A stretch of DNA of 64,000 bases from Anaerovibrio sp. JC8 (GTDB taxonomy: Bacteria > Bacillota > Negativicutes > Selenomonadales > Selenomonadaceae), in contig NZ_ANBM01000004.1 in NCBI RefSeq assembly GCF_002100115.1, positions 124,001 to 188,000 on the forward strand, read 5' to 3'. The translations under genes and the position numbers were made by a program. The notes beneath the pieces were generated by a model, which saw only the letters and a program-made list of their open reading frames with translations, ran no database searches and had not been told where the DNA came from. This document shows, piece by piece, positions 46,238 to 54,814 of the stretch (position 1 is the first letter of the stretch; every line of letters begins with the position of its first letter).

Positions 46238-48787
46238 TTATTTGTCACGACCGCAGCAATTCTTGTACTTCTTGCCGCTGCCGCATGGGCATGGGTCGTT
46301 ACGGCCGATTTTCTCGCCCTTGACAACAGGCTTCTGCTTGGTCTTTTCCTCAGAATCATCCGCCTGGGCATGGGAGCTCTTGGCCTGGGCCAGACGCTGC
46401 TTTGCCTGCTCTTCCATGGCACGCTGCTGCTCTGGGGTAATGATGTTTACACGATACATCATGGTGGCAATATCAGTCTGGATGGCATCGACCATGGACT
46501 GGAACATATCGTGGCCCTTGATCTTGTACTCAACCAGCGGATTGCGCTGACCATAGGACAGGAGACCAATACCCTCACGGAGCATATCCATGTCATCAAG
46601 ATGCTCCATCCAGTGGTTATCAATAACACGAAGCATAACGATGCGCTCCAGCTCACGCATATTGACCTCGCCAAACATCTTCTCACGAAGCTCGTAGGCC
46701 TCGGTAGCCATATTCATGAGGGTTTCCTGAACCTCGTCGCGGCTCATTTCCTCCAGCTCCTCCAGCTTCAGCTTGCCTGCAGGAGCATAAATCTGCTCAG
46801 CGTCCTTAATGAGGTCACCCAGGGTCCACTGCTCAGGATAGAGCTTGGCATTGGCATACTGATCCATTTCGGACTCGATAATCTGGCCAATCATGTGCAT
46901 GATGTGTTCCTTCAGGTCCTCGCCCTTCAGCACCTGCTTGCGCTCCTTGTAGATAACCTCGCGCTGCTGGTTCATAACATCATCATATTCAAGGACATGC
47001 TTACGCATATCGAAGTTGCGTCCTTCTACCTTCTTCTGGGCATTCTCAATGGACTTGGTAATCATCTTGTGCTCAATCGGGTCATCCTCGCCCATGCCCA
47101 GACGGTCCATAATGGAGGAAATGTTCTTGGCACCGAAGAGACGGAGCAGATCATCCTCCAAGGAGAGATAGAAACGGGAATTACCAGGGTCACCCTGACG
47201 GCCGGCACGACCGCGGAGCTGGTTATCAATACGGCGGGACTCATGACGCTCAGTACCCACGATAAAGAGACCGCCCAGCTCAGGCACACCCTCGCCCAGC
47301 TTGATATCGGTACCACGGCCCGCCATGTTGGTGGCAATGGTAACGGCATTCTTCTGACCTGCGTCAGCAATGATTTCTGCTTCCTTCTCATGGAACTTGG
47401 CATTCAATACATTATGGGAAATGCCACGCTTTCTGAGAATTGCACTGATTTCCTCGGACTGGGCAATGGAGGTGGTACCAATGAGGATTGGCTGGCCGGT
47501 GGAGTGAATTTTCTCCACATCATTGGCCACAGCCTTCAGCTTGGCACGACGGGTCTTATAGATAACATCCGGGAAGTCGGTACGCTTAACCGGCATATTG
47601 GTAGGCACCACTACTACCGGCAGGTTGTAAATCTTGATAAACTCGTCTTCCTCGGTCTTGGCAGTACCGGTCATACCACCCAGCTTCTTGTACATGCGGA
47701 AGTAGTTCTGGAAGGTAATGCTGGCCAGAGTCTGGGACTGACGGCGAACCTCCAGGCCCTCCTTGGCCTCGATAGCCTGATGGAGACCATCGGAATAACG
47801 GCGGCCTTCCATAAGACGGCCGGTGAATTCATCGACGATAACGATTTCGCCCTCTTTAACCACATAATCACGGTCACGCTTCATGAGAGCCTTGGCACGG
47901 AGAGCCGCAGTGAAGCAGTGGGACATCTCGATGTTCTCGGAGTCGTACATATTCTTTACGCCCAGGAACTTCTCAACCTTGGCAACTGCACCCTCGGACG
48001 GAGCAACAGTCTTCTGCTTCTCATCAACGGTGTAGTCCTCACCGGCCTTCAAAATCTCAACGGCCTTGGCCATGCGGGTATACATATCGGTAGACTTGGT
48101 GCCGGCACCGGAAATAATCAATGGAGTTCTGGCCTCATCGATGAGGATACTGTCCACCTCATCCACGATGGCAAAGTTCAGCTCACGCTGTACCATCTGG
48201 TTAAGGTCTACCACCATGTTGTCACGGAGATAGTCAAAGCCATACTCGTTGTTGGTACCAAAGGTAATATCGCAGCTGTAGGCAAACTTGCGCTCAGGGA
48301 AATCCATGTCGTGCTTAATCAGACCTACACTGAGGCCCAGGAAGTTGTACAGACGGCCCATCCACTCACTATCGCGCTTGGCCAGATAGTCGTTGACGGT
48401 AACCATGTGTACGCCCTTGCCGGTGAGGGCATTCAGATATACAGGGAGGGTTGCCACCAGGGTCTTACCTTCACCTGTACGCATCTCGGCAATCTTGCCT
48501 TCATGGAGGCAGATACCACCAATCATCTGCACATCAAAATGACGCATACCCAGCACACGGCGGGATGCCTCACGAACAACGGCAAAGGCCTCCGGAAGAA
48601 TATCATCCAGGGTCTCACCGTTGGCAAGACGCTCCTTGAATTTTTCTGTATTTTTAACCAATGAGGAGTCGCTGAGCTCGGTCAATTCCTCTTCATAGGA
48701 ATTGATCTGGTCTACGATTGCTCTCATACGTTTTATTTCTTTTTCATTATTGTCGCCTAAAAATCTTTTAAAGATGCCTAACAACAA
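46238..48787 (-). CDS. secA: Preprotein translocase ATPase SecA
   Basis: 849 aa. Motor of the Sec pathway. Walker [13 protein letters not shown] ([17 protein letters not shown]), the [15 protein letters not shown] segment, and the zinc-binding SEC-C tail [18 protein letters not shown]. The start is one of two tandem TTG codons (48787 or 48784), both 6-9 bases after AGGAG; no ATG fits. Unusually for such an important gene, an inefficient start codon is used. A consensus promoter lies 48 bp upstream. Confidence 0.97.
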
Positions 48788-48896: not shown

Positions 48897-49095
48897 CGCA
48901 GGAAAAGGCCGCTGCCCGCACGACCTACGAGCAACGGCCCCTTCTATAATTTACCGATCCTACAACCGGCAAAAGTCTTTATTTATCCGAGGCTAACGGT
49001 TGCTAATACTCCTTCCTCTTGGGTGGGAGTTAAGCACCCGTAAAGCCATGGGTAAAATTCAACTAAATTCAGGCGGAGCTAAAACTCCATCTGAA
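48897..49095. mobile_element. Structured element between hpf and secA (IS200/IS605-like end or raiA-type RNA)
   Basis: About 200 bp with several paired segments and no ORF. One end has GGCCGCTGC / GCAACGGCC (48907-48939). The middle has CTAATACTCC and GGGAGTTAAGCACCC. The other end is TTCAGGCGGAG / CTCCATCTGAA (49068-49095), preceded by AACTAAA. The plus-strand order (TACTCC stem, GGGAGTTAAGCACC, AACTAAATTCAG hairpin) recalls right ends of IS200/IS605 elements that encode TnpB guide RNAs, but no transposase is present. Read on the minus strand it begins 12 bp after hpf and ends GGCCGTTGC / GCAGCGGCC plus TTTT, like an RNA with a terminator; a raiA-motif RNA is the alternative. The rest of the 320-bp gap holds the secA promoter. 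Confidence 0.45.
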
Positions 49096-49107
49096 TAAGT
49101 TATCATT

Positions 49108-49656
49108 TTATCTGTTATCGGACTCGATCAAGCCATACTTGCCATCGGAGCGGCGATAAACTACGTTGACCTCTTCGGTATCAGCATCACGGAATACGAA
49201 GAAATCGTGATTCAGAAGATTCATCTGCATAATAGCCTCCTGAACGTCCATAGGCTTTACGATGAACTTCTTGCGCTTAACGATAGGATACTCATCCTCC
49301 TCGTCCTCAACCCGGGCCTGGACTGCGTTGGCAGCGAATGCCTCATCCAGCAATGTACCATCGCGGAAACGGCGCTGCATCTTGGTCTTATGCTTATGTA
49401 TCTGGCGTTCCAGCTTTTCAATGACCAAGTCAATAGAGGCATACATGTCATGGGATGCTTCCTCTCCCCGGAGAAGCACGCCCTGCACAGGAACTGTAAC
49501 CTCTACAAGGTGACGGTCCTTCAAGACACTGAGCAATACAGAAATTTCGCCAACCGAATCGAAGTATCTGGTAATCTTGCCGATCCTTTTCTCCACATAA
49601 TCTCTCAGGGCTGGGGTAATCTCTACATTTTTACCTCTGATAGTGAATGTTGTCAT
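49108..49656 (-). CDS. hpf: Long-form ribosome hibernation-promoting factor
   Basis: 182 aa from ATG 49656, with AAAGGGG upstream; longer in-frame starts up to 49803 read non-conserved sequence. The N-terminal S30AE domain (MTTFTIRGKNVEITPALRDY to about 105) has the conserved HLVEVTVPVQG. A linker and the C-terminal dimerisation domain (VKRKKFIVKPMDVQEAIMQM, DHDFFVF-like NHDFFVFRDADTEEVNVVY) follow. It pairs 70S ribosomes into inactive 100S dimers in stationary phase. It has its own promoter; secA is downstream, as in many Firmicutes. Confidence 0.95.
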   Translation of the reverse strand: MTTFTIRGKNVEITPALRDYVEKRIGKITRYFDSVGEISVLLSVLKDRHLVEVTVPVQGVLLRGEEASHDMYASIDLVIEKLERQIHKHKTKMQRRFRDGTLLDEAFAANAVQARVEDEEDEYPIVKRKKFIVKPMDVQEAIMQMNLLNHDFFVFRDADTEEVNVVYRRSDGKYGLIESDNR

Positions 49657-49770: not shown

Positions 49771-49804
49771 AAAAAAGGTGTTCCGGAAATACTTCCGAAA
49801 CACC
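49771..49804 (-). terminator. Terminator of the cold-shock gene
   Basis: Minus strand GGTGTTTCGGAA / TTCCGGAACACC with a GTAT loop and TTTTTT. Confidence 0.93.
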
Positions 49805-49826
49805 CTGTGATTTACATTATTAAGAA

Positions 49827-50027
49827 TCAGGCCTTCTTAACAACATTAGCTGCCTGAGGACCGCGTGCACCTTCAACGATCTCAAACTCTACAGTCTGAC
49901 CCTCGTTGAGTGTCTTGAAGCCTTCATCCACGATTGCAGAGAAATGTACGAAAATATCGTCGCCACCTTCACGCTCGATAAATCCATAACCCTTTTCAGC
50001 ACTAAACCACTTAACCTTACCTTCCAT
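49827..50027 (-). CDS. Cold-shock protein (CspA family)
   Basis: 66 aa from ATG 50027, with AGGAGG 9 bases upstream. [20 protein letters not shown] contains RNP1 (KGYGFI) and [10 protein letters not shown] is RNP2; the C-terminus [12 protein letters not shown] is typical. Single-stranded nucleic-acid-binding RNA chaperone. It has a leader of about 50 nt with a short CGGTTTTTAACCG hairpin and its own promoter and terminator. Confidence 0.97.
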
Positions 50028-50079
50028 TTTGAAACCTCCTAGAAATCCCCGGTTAAAAACCGATAAAACTAACACGTTT

Positions 50080-50108
50080 AGTCTAGCACCTATAGTTAGC
50101 ATCTGCAA
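50080..50108 (-). promoter_or_regulatory. Promoter of the cold-shock gene
   Basis: Minus strand TTGCAG (50108-50103), 17-base spacer, TAGACT (50085-50080). Confidence 0.65.
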
Positions 50109-50268
50109 CTATCTTAGTAATTATAATTTAACTGTAAATTACCCCAAAACAGAAAAAAATATAATGGCTAAACTATATTAAGAAATTAATATAAGTTTAA
50201 CCATTATTTTAAGATTTTTTATATGGTTCTGTGAGAATTTTCAAAAAATTATATTCTATTTAGTCAGG

Positions 50269-52649: not shown

Positions 52650-52943
52650 TTAAGCATTCTTTTTTGCCTGGAAGCAGTCACGGCAGTATACTGGACGGTC
52701 GTTCTTTGGCTCGAATGGAACCTCAGTCTCCTTGCCGCACTCAGCACATACTACAGTGAACATCTGACGCTGCTCTCTTGCGCCCTCGCCATCACGGCTG
52801 CGACGTCTCTTGTCGCGGCAATCGCGGCAGCGTACAGGCTTGTTCTCAAAGCCCTTCTCTGCATAAAATTCCTGCTCTCCTGCGCTAAAGATGAACTCCT
52901 TGCCACAGTCCTTACATGTTAAAGTCTCGTCTACAAAAGCCAT
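52650..52943 (-). CDS. Zinc-ribbon domain protein
   Basis: 97 aa from MAFVDETL (52943). Two CxxC pairs surround the first ribbon (TCKDCGKEF and RCRDCRDKRRR) and another two the second (VCAECGKETEVPF and YCRDCFQAKK). Small proteins with this doubled ribbon are common in Firmicutes and related to CxxC_CXXC_SSSS-type or zinc_ribbon_4 families. Probably nucleic-acid or protein binding; function unknown. Monocistronic. Confidence 0.85.
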   Translation of the reverse strand: MAFVDETLTCKDCGKEFIFSAGEQEFYAEKGFENKPVRCRDCRDKRRRSRDGEGAREQRQMFTVVCAECGKETEVPFEPKNDRPVYCRDCFQAKKNA

Positions 52944-53065
52944 TAAAAAATCCCCCATAATTCTGATTTGACATCCCGCTGTACTCTTACTACTTACCTA
53001 CTTCCAGGTGGTCAAAGAGACATCCTTACCCGTCAAGTATATATGTAAAAATGAAAAAAAGCAAG

Positions 53066-54814
53066 CTAAACTTTACAATAGGTAGCCCAAATCTGCTTAA
53101 ATTTATTCTCTATATCCGCCATATACGACTTATTGTCCATCAGACGTGACATTCGTATCATTTTTGGCAAATCATGATGCAATTCGTTCAACTTCTCCAC
53201 CTGACGTCCCAGCTGCACCGCCTTGCTTACATAAGTACGGCTTCCATCGCAGATAAGCTCCGGCAAGCCCGCCGCCTGCAAAATGGTTTCCCCGTAACGG
53301 GAGCCGTGGGAATGTCCCTTCAGGGTGACCACCGGCACACCCATGGACAAAGCATCACAGGTGGTGAGCCCTCCACAATATGGTGAGGTATCCAGACAGA
53401 TATCTATATCCTGATACTGGGTGAGATAATCCGGACTGAAGGGCCGCAGCTCCAGCTTGTCAGGGTTGCCCCCGATGCGACGGAACCGTTCCAGAATAAT
53501 CTCCCGCCCCGATGGCACGCTGCAGGTCTTGTTTTTAAGCACCAGCTTGGAAGGAATGCTTTCCAATATATTGCGCCACATGAGCAGCATATCGTCGGTA
53601 ACCTTGGCAAAATTATTGAAGCAGCCGTAAGTAACATAGCCATTGGCCTTGGCCGGGGCATCCGCCCCTTCAAATTTCATGGTTCTCAGAGTGCCGGGGC
53701 TGAAACAGAGGTGACAGCCCTCAACCTTCAACAGCTTCTCCGTAAATTTCCTCTGGTCCCCAGGAGCAGGGCAGCATACATCATCCGTCAAAAAGTAATC
53801 CACGGTGCCAAGCCCCGTGGTGTTGATATATCCGATGCCGGAAACCTGCACCGGGGCAGGACGATAGCCCAATATTGGCAGACAGTTATTCTGGCTGTGG
53901 CCGGACAAATCCACCAAAATATCTATGCGGTCATCGAAAATCTGCCGTGCCACTGCGCGGCTGTTCTTGCCGTACATATCCCGCCATACGTCGGGCATCT
54001 TCATGAACCGCTGGGTTATATGATCCTTTTTGCCGGTGGAATAAGCATATACTTTAAATTCATTGCGGTTGGCATCCTTTAAAAACGGCGTAAAGAAATA
54101 GGCCGCCGCATGCTGACGAAAGTCGGGAGAAATATACCCTATCCGCAGGGAATGATTTTTCCGCCTTTTGTCCTTGTCATGAGGAAATTTCACCTCTGTC
54201 CGCAGCAGGCTGGCATATTGGTTATGCTGCTCAAACTGACGGTCCGTGCCGCTTTCGCGGTAATTGGTCAAAAACAGGGCATTGCTGTGATACTGGGCCT
54301 TTTTCTTAATGTCAGACACCGTCCGGCTGGCCTTGAAGGTCGCTTTTGCCGCCTTATCCGCAGCCCCTGCCAGCAGACAGGTATCCGCATAAAAGGTATA
54401 GCCACGCTCAATAATCCGATGGCTGGTATCGTCCCATTTTCCCTTGCCCACGCTGACATCAAACCGCTTAAACAGCTGCTCGTAGGCCTCCATGGCCTTA
54501 TCAAGGATAAACTGAGCACCATAAAAAGCAGCCGTAGCAAACAAGCCCCGCAAATTCGCAACCGCCACTGTTTTCTGAGAGTCCAGATGCCACAGCTGGT
54601 CCAGGGCAGATTCTGCCGTTTCAAAGTCCTCAAGATAAACCGACGCCTCCGCCACTATGGCCCAACCCTCAGCATTATTCAAATCTTCATCCAAAATCTC
54701 CCGGCCACAGGCCCGCATGCTGGAGAAATTCCCATCCTCCAAAAACATTTCCGCCTTGTCAGACCAGGAAGATTTTTTAGATTCATTATCCTTGCTGCTC
54801 AATTTGTACACCAT
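53066..54814 (-). CDS. OGT/SPINDLY-type O-linked glycosyltransferase (GT41), copy 1
   Basis: 582 aa. N-terminal TPR-like helices (residues about 20-190), then the GT41 catalytic region: RIGYISPDFRQHAAAYFF, DILVDLSGHSQNNCL, YGCFNNFAKVTDDM, LVLKNKTC and DICLDTSPYCGGLTTCDAL with MGVPVVTLKG. GT41 enzymes add sugars to Ser/Thr of proteins. In Selenomonas and relatives they occur with flagellin or surface-protein glycosylation genes. Here it clusters with a methyltransferase-GT2 fusion and a second GT41. Downstream end of the cluster; no terminator evident. Confidence 0.92.
   Translation of the reverse strand: MVYKLSSKDNESKKSSWSDKAEMFLEDGNFSSMRACGREILDEDLNNAEGWAIVAEASVYLEDFETAESALDQLWHLDSQKTVAVANLRGLFATAAFYGAQFILDKAMEAYEQLFKRFDVSVGKGKWDDTSHRIIERGYTFYADTCLLAGAADKAAKATFKASRTVSDIKKKAQYHSNALFLTNYRESGTDRQFEQHNQYASLLRTEVKFPHDKDKRRKNHSLRIGYISPDFRQHAAAYFFTPFLKDANRNEFKVYAYSTGKKDHITQRFMKMPDVWRDMYGKNSRAVARQIFDDRIDILVDLSGHSQNNCLPILGYRPAPVQVSGIGYINTTGLGTVDYFLTDDVCCPAPGDQRKFTEKLLKVEGCHLCFSPGTLRTMKFEGADAPAKANGYVTYGCFNNFAKVTDDMLLMWRNILESIPSKLVLKNKTCSVPSGREIILERFRRIGGNPDKLELRPFSPDYLTQYQDIDICLDTSPYCGGLTTCDALSMGVPVVTLKGHSHGSRYGETILQAAGLPELICDGSRTYVSKAVQLGRQVEKLNELHHDLPKMIRMSRLMDNKSYMADIENKFKQIWATYCKV

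Follow-up and report, generated by a model that had tools for sequence, protein, structure and literature searches.

A probable non-autonomous mobile element of Anaerovibrio, structured and dispersed, lying between hpf and secA

Introduction

Short gene-less repeats are usually dismissed as species-specific debris. Several kinds have nonetheless been characterized, among them the PATEs and other MITE-like elements of the IS200/IS605 group, which carry no gene, have subterminal hairpins and keep their insertion site 3′ of a short word. As the available portions of the relevant papers describe them, the bcr1 group-A repeats are multicopy, intergenic, MITE-like sequences of ∼150 bp (147 and 167; PMC2267715) with a conserved stem-loop, their mobility is linked to a TTTAT motif, and they are restricted to the B. 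cereus group (PMC6542083, PMC3446304, PMC2267715). REPs are described as intergenic palindromes whose movement is attributed to a Y1 enzyme acting in trans, and for the CGTC REPs no transposase is known (PMC3733652). A fourth system is an RNA rather than a repeat: raiA genes are, in the part of the source available, common neighbours of the raiA motif, or ModT RNA (PMC11706538). We found no published account of a TTTAT-flanked repeat of this sort in Negativicutes in the open-licence literature.

Here we describe a repeat copy in the window, by which we mean the whole 64,000-nucleotide stretch of DNA analysed. NCBI taxonomy places its host in Negativicutes, Selenomonadaceae, and with five Anaerovibrio Hpf relatives at 97–99% identity the host is, to judge by sequence, an Anaerovibrio close to A. 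lipolyticus.

Results

A structured non-coding element had been proposed at 48897–49095 by a first-pass annotation, which placed it between hpf and secA. The position is correct, both genes lying on the minus strand and the gap from the end of hpf (49108) to the start of secA (∼48787) being ∼320 bp, and the structure was confirmed: the whole interval folds beyond chance on the plus strand (−68.8 kcal/mol, z −4.9) and on the minus strand (−88.7 kcal/mol, z −6.5), levels that none of 200 shuffles reached on either. Yet this is not one structure. Cut at ∼48980, the right part (48981–49108) gives z −7.1 on plus versus −5.2 on minus, and the left part (48897–48980) −6.6 on minus versus −1.2 on plus. 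The interval is two structures of opposite polarity, a mobile repeat with the plus strand favoured and a minus-strand RNA at the hpf 3′ end (Table 1), and the proposed edges had to be redrawn at both sides: the right one fell ∼16 bp short of the repeat, which runs to 49111 and takes in the hpf stop codon, and the left part, 48902–48973, is the separate structure. The best match of the interval to any Rfam family at E up to 10 was Evf-2_5p, at chance level (16.4 bits, E 2.2, gathering score 40). Elsewhere in the window a cspA thermoregulator-like match (49774–50113, minus strand; 58.3 bits, below the 78-bit cut-off) covers a csp gene and leader upstream of hpf.

Table 1. Positions of the genes, the repeat copy and its parts, and the hpf 3′ structures in the window
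Feature	Position	Strand	Evidence
secA	46238..48787	−	ORF list
Sigma-70-like site upstream of secA	48863-48835	−	Promoter scan
hpf terminator-like stem with 4-residue U tract and mostly conserved loop region	48902..48944	−	Fold, alignment
hpf 3′ hairpin UUUGCCGGUU-GUAG-GAUCGGUAAA	48950..48973	−	Fold, alignment
Dispersed-repeat copy	48982..49111	+	Copies in own genome and relatives; empty site L046
TTTAT flanks of the window copy	48982-48986 and 49107-49111	+	Sequence
First composite hairpin, an outer helix followed by a long stem whose A-rich internal loops are conserved	48982..49056	+	Fold, covariation helices 1 and 2
Second hairpin ATTCAGGCGGAG...CTCCATCTGAAT, near right end	49067..49096	+	Fold, covariation
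Right-end TTTAT, containing the hpf stop codon TAA (49108-49110) on the minus strand	49107..49111	+	Sequence, L046
hpf, hibernation promoting factor, 182 aa	49108..49656	−	ORF list, Hpf relatives

The left structure is, on sequence grounds, hpf's own 3′ end, comprising a hairpin and a terminator-like stem unrelated to the repeat. When the 300 nt after hpf were scanned with a profile, 9 of 80 loci matched on the plus strand, all of them Anaerovibrio; the profile had itself been built from these nine and the window. Over 9 distinct rows, 97.4% of cells are paired. Pairing is complete (100%) in the terminator helix, where six pairs have changed on both sides. It is 93.2% in the upstream hairpin, which shows no double change and is missing from locus L142; the loop region differs in L139. 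On a measure that admits further pair types, 57 of 500 shuffles scored as high as the hpf part. The U tract has 4 residues in the window and 5 in L136, and a terminator scanner found no terminator here.

A likeness between the minus strand and the raiA motif had also been noted, and the strand does adjoin hpf and end in a terminator-like stem. What it holds instead is the hpf hairpin and stem just described. No match to the raiA/ModT model (RF03072) was found in the interval at E 10 or anywhere in the genome. The model performed well as a positive control in the class, where 115 of 150 genomes had the RNA (112 over cut-off, at 174–202 bits). In the host family, by contrast, it matched 0 of 161 genomes (98 near complete; own genome included) under the stricter filters of large searches, to which weak matches are lost, and all 20 listed of the 35 class genomes without a match belong to that family, which looks like a family-wide loss. 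In locus L302 the raiA RNA lies directly before a gene homologous to window 52650–52958 (zinc-ribbon-like by eye); in the window only ∼107 bp (52958–53066) precede that gene, with no raiA match. Without the insert, moreover, the conserved hpf 3′ structure is only ∼75 nt. We therefore give practically no credence to the reading of the interval as a raiA-motif (ModT) RNA in minus orientation beside hpf.

The right structure is a repeat, multicopy, with common ends in unrelated flanks, and relatives keep its empty site. BLAST with a 231-bp interval matched 21 of 60 genomes (own included); among the matches listed, the part 49110–48982 occurs many times per genome and the left part is found a single time in each of five close relatives. 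Other copies, a search for which had been suggested in the first-pass annotation, were found in the own genome at 13 more places: a covariance model, R1, gave 12, and the last is a truncated copy beside one of them. Read with their flanks, the 12 other regions share the ends TTTAT-CCGATGC ... CATTTTAT (with variants). Three copies (L041, L042 and L256) have the right end CTCATTGAAC and different left flanks, and the right end looks to be borne by the element, judging by these copies. At the junction of a tandem pair in genome G006 (L003 and L050, which are the same place), TTTTA is common to both copies. Right ends are constant and left flanks TTTAT-like with several exceptions (L035, L037), which would point either to a loose target rule or to decay at those sites. 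For the hpf locus alone, a 5-bp target duplication is a possible alternative account of the TTTAT pair. Past the right end, flanks differ among copies except in one apparently orthologous pair (L005/L006).

At the hpf–secA site, to which the empty-site comparison is confined, Anaerovibrio sp. RM50 (L046) reads GATAACAGATAAATAAAGAT where the window has its insert, a clean empty site relative to which the window carries ∼125 bp extra. Four more Anaerovibrio hpf–secA loci (L043–L045, L047) also have no repeat. The ∼125-nt body is gene-free. In 21 copies the gene on the right points towards the element, and in five of these it stops exactly 3 bases inside the matched end, as hpf does. By crude ORF calls, no copy lies inside a called ORF (0 of 56 with a called ORF on both sides, from 57 distinct copies, one without a neighbour being left out), and several overlap ORF edges. 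One own-genome copy (L039, 2540–2585) is interrupted by ∼45 bp whose two edges have almost the same 10-bp stretch and which may be a further small element; in G004 (L263, 3963–4019) two right ends of the repeat are joined head to head as an almost perfect palindrome; and L043 and L046 have a further insert, of ∼110 bp, after the hpf terminator stem and before the secA promoter region.

The fold of the repeat is kept by compensatory changes. We aligned 35 of 38 collected copies (L003_1752, L100_1424 and L017_1424 were left out, and the window row stops before the right end), and over 32 pairs 94.3% of cells are paired, with 69 double-side-changed cells versus 18.5 in shuffles (0 of 500 as high); the weaker measure with further pair types was matched in 5 of 500 shuffles. 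As to which strand folds, the model suggests plus by its pairs (130 G-U versus 33 A-C cells) and by consensus energy (−29.4 versus −20.5 for minus); counter to plus, single copies fold better as plus in only 23 of 35 cases, and by little (mean −55.5 versus −54.0), and the 20 pairs predicted on both strands have 14 A-C versus 4 G-U cells. On this mixed evidence the plus strand is favoured, short of proof, and the analysis would be compatible with either RNA or single-stranded DNA as the folded form.

Model R1, whose source copies come in part from several genomes that were also searched, had matches in 50 of 250 genomes of the class and in 30 of 299 of the phylum (own genome in both). Because only 11–13 candidates were scored per genome these counts are floors. 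Nine loci from outside the class were read; eight are plainly the same element and the ninth (L296) had been extracted at the wrong place. Exact right-hairpin cores number 41 in G191, 36 in G041, 23 in G004, 19 in G006, 1 in the own genome (G000) and 0 in G001, and the backward control of the core gave 0 in 13 of 13 genomes. A loop pattern, TTCGTAGGTCGTGCGG with 2 mismatches, was also tried and matched 101 of 151 family genomes, but its backward control matches widely too (own genome 1 versus 3), so the pattern is useless beyond the genus. By blastn, neither 2 copies against phages nor 3 copies against plasmids found the repeat. Three viral contigs match the right-hairpin pattern, one of them (L307) strongly backed by R1 (49.4 bits), and none matches the left-end pattern; L309 is a phage-like contig that has duplicated hairpins of its own.

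The first composite hairpin varies. Copies at L246 and L249–L251 have no upper part or a different one, and its apical loop is the site of extra modules in other genomes. Among 12 left-shortened matches in G041 and G191, ten are long forms of ∼233 nt with one ∼103-nt module in that loop, and the other two (L316:814 and L261) hold two modules in tandem. Long forms with modules were seen at L314–L318, L310, L313 and L261. Within the modules one stem covaries, reading either GGATT-TTCG-AATCC or GGGTC-TCCG-GACCC; its loops are UNCG, with one UUUG exception. UNCG loops stabilise RNA.

Features of this kind could also belong to a regulatory RNA selected near genes, serving as a terminator, mRNA stabiliser or antisense RNA, rather than to a parasite. 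Such a role would suit a structure that covaries across families and lies between genes, the UNCG-closed stems of the modules, and the orientation of the copies, 27 of which read with both neighbours and 14 against both. The excess falls short of significance, however (27 of 41, p 0.06), close relatives have no repeat at hpf–secA, and abundance differs strongly between genomes. We consider a selected RNA unlikely.

The search for a mobilising enzyme was negative. In the own genome, which is 99.99% complete, there are 0 Y1_Tnp matches and 0 matches to the TnpB domain family PF07282. Reading of translations revealed no transposase in three right-end-only or partial copies with ORFs listed, nor in ten regions with closely spaced copies, where the ORFs look like ordinary host genes. 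Across 83 Y1 or TnpB loci R1 was strong only next to broken Y1 fragments in G004 (L090 and L100), and no strong copy lies within ∼1.5 kb of 29 Y1 loci from repeat-bearing genomes, including some that we take to be RAYT-sized. R1 also matched two IS605 left ends (L082, E 0.006; L265, E 0.009), a resemblance too weak to use.

These results bear on the suggestion, made in the first-pass annotation, of a PATE-like element without transposase. A gene-less mobile element with subterminal palindromes, in plus orientation, was borne out; IS200/IS605 ends were not, no autonomous Y1 element sharing them having been found among the 83 loci. An IS200/IS605 derivative whose subterminal hairpins are recognised by a Y1 (HUH) TnpA acting in trans would account for those palindromes, for a site apparently restored 3′ of a short T-rich word and for the fact that no terminal inverted repeats were seen; the two IS605 left ends, weak as they are, point the same way. 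Y1 matches occur in 20 of 20 repeat-bearing genomes searched from other genera, an enzyme common anyway (15 of 21 relatives). Set against this are the own genome without a Y1 match, the differing TnpB right ends, the scarcity of strong R1 matches among the 83 loci, and G001, which has 5 Y1 and 7 TnpB-domain matches yet no repeat. We regard this derivation as possible, if on the doubtful side.

The annotation had further proposed a TnpB guide-RNA scaffold, that is, a relic of an omega RNA with its guide antisense into the hpf 3′ end. Plus orientation, a right-end hairpin and a flank that would serve as guide all fit, but with no TnpB-domain match in the genome, a scaffold and right end that by eye are unlike those of the genus's TnpB elements, no strong R1 match in TnpB loci, and right flanks that vary as for any insertion (save in the orthologous pair), we think it very improbable. 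The Rfam check that had been suggested with raiA, IS605-orfB and HEARO models returned no meaningful match at E up to 10, including for HEARO/IscB omega RNA, a search with no HEARO positive control. Rfam also missed six genuine TnpB loci, so the lack of a match to the repeat carries little weight. A group I intron match (L116, 2784–3119, minus strand; 58.4 bits) lies in the locus of a G003 TnpB gene.

Discussion

Taken as a whole, the observations are best explained if 48982–49111 is a non-autonomous interspersed mobile element, and we hold this to be very probable. We infer that an enzyme supplied in trans would recognise the folded strand, whether this is single-stranded DNA or a transcript, and would join the element 3′ of a TTTA(T)-like site. 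Since the element also closes with TTTAT at its right end, the site would be restored, and at hpf the TAA of the stop codon would thus be kept. Insertion there would only lengthen the 3′ untranslated region by ∼125 nt, because hpf would still read into its own hairpin and stem. What appears as one intergenic structure can be two elements of opposite polarity set side by side by insertion.

One covariance model ties the Anaerovibrio copies to other families and classes with structure preserved, relatives have very different copy numbers, and the loop tolerates added modules. We tentatively propose, as an idea that may well prove wrong, that the window copy represents an undescribed group of mobile, structured elements present in many families of the phylum, in which the folded plus strand would be selected, the apical loop of the first hairpin could carry tandemly repeatable ∼103-nt modules with covarying UNCG-closed stems, and movement at TTTAT-like sites would depend on an enzyme other than resident Y1/TnpB; bcr1 may be one branch. 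A family that crosses the phylum with its structure preserved makes it a testable question which enzyme moves TTTAT-flanked repeats, and whether it acts on RNA or single-stranded DNA.

With the raiA motif, or ModT RNA, the locus shares a raiA-gene neighbourhood and differs in having no sequence-structure match, as does the rest of the host family. Like PATEs and related IS200/IS605 elements, the repeat has no gene and has subterminal hairpins, and it may keep its site 3′ of a short word, but no partner IS with the same ends was found, and the own genome has no Y1 or TnpB match. Like REPs, the repeat is palindromic and intergenic and, as the available text reports for CGTC REPs, has no known transposase; unlike them it is longer, has two hairpins and ends in TTTAT rather than GTAG. 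The closest described kind is bcr1 (group A, bcr1–bcr3), which by description alone, in the parts of the papers available, resembles it in size (∼150 bp), TTTAT, intergenic position and fold; bcr1 is described there from the Bacillus cereus group only, whereas the repeat reported here occurs in Negativicutes and in other classes of the phylum.
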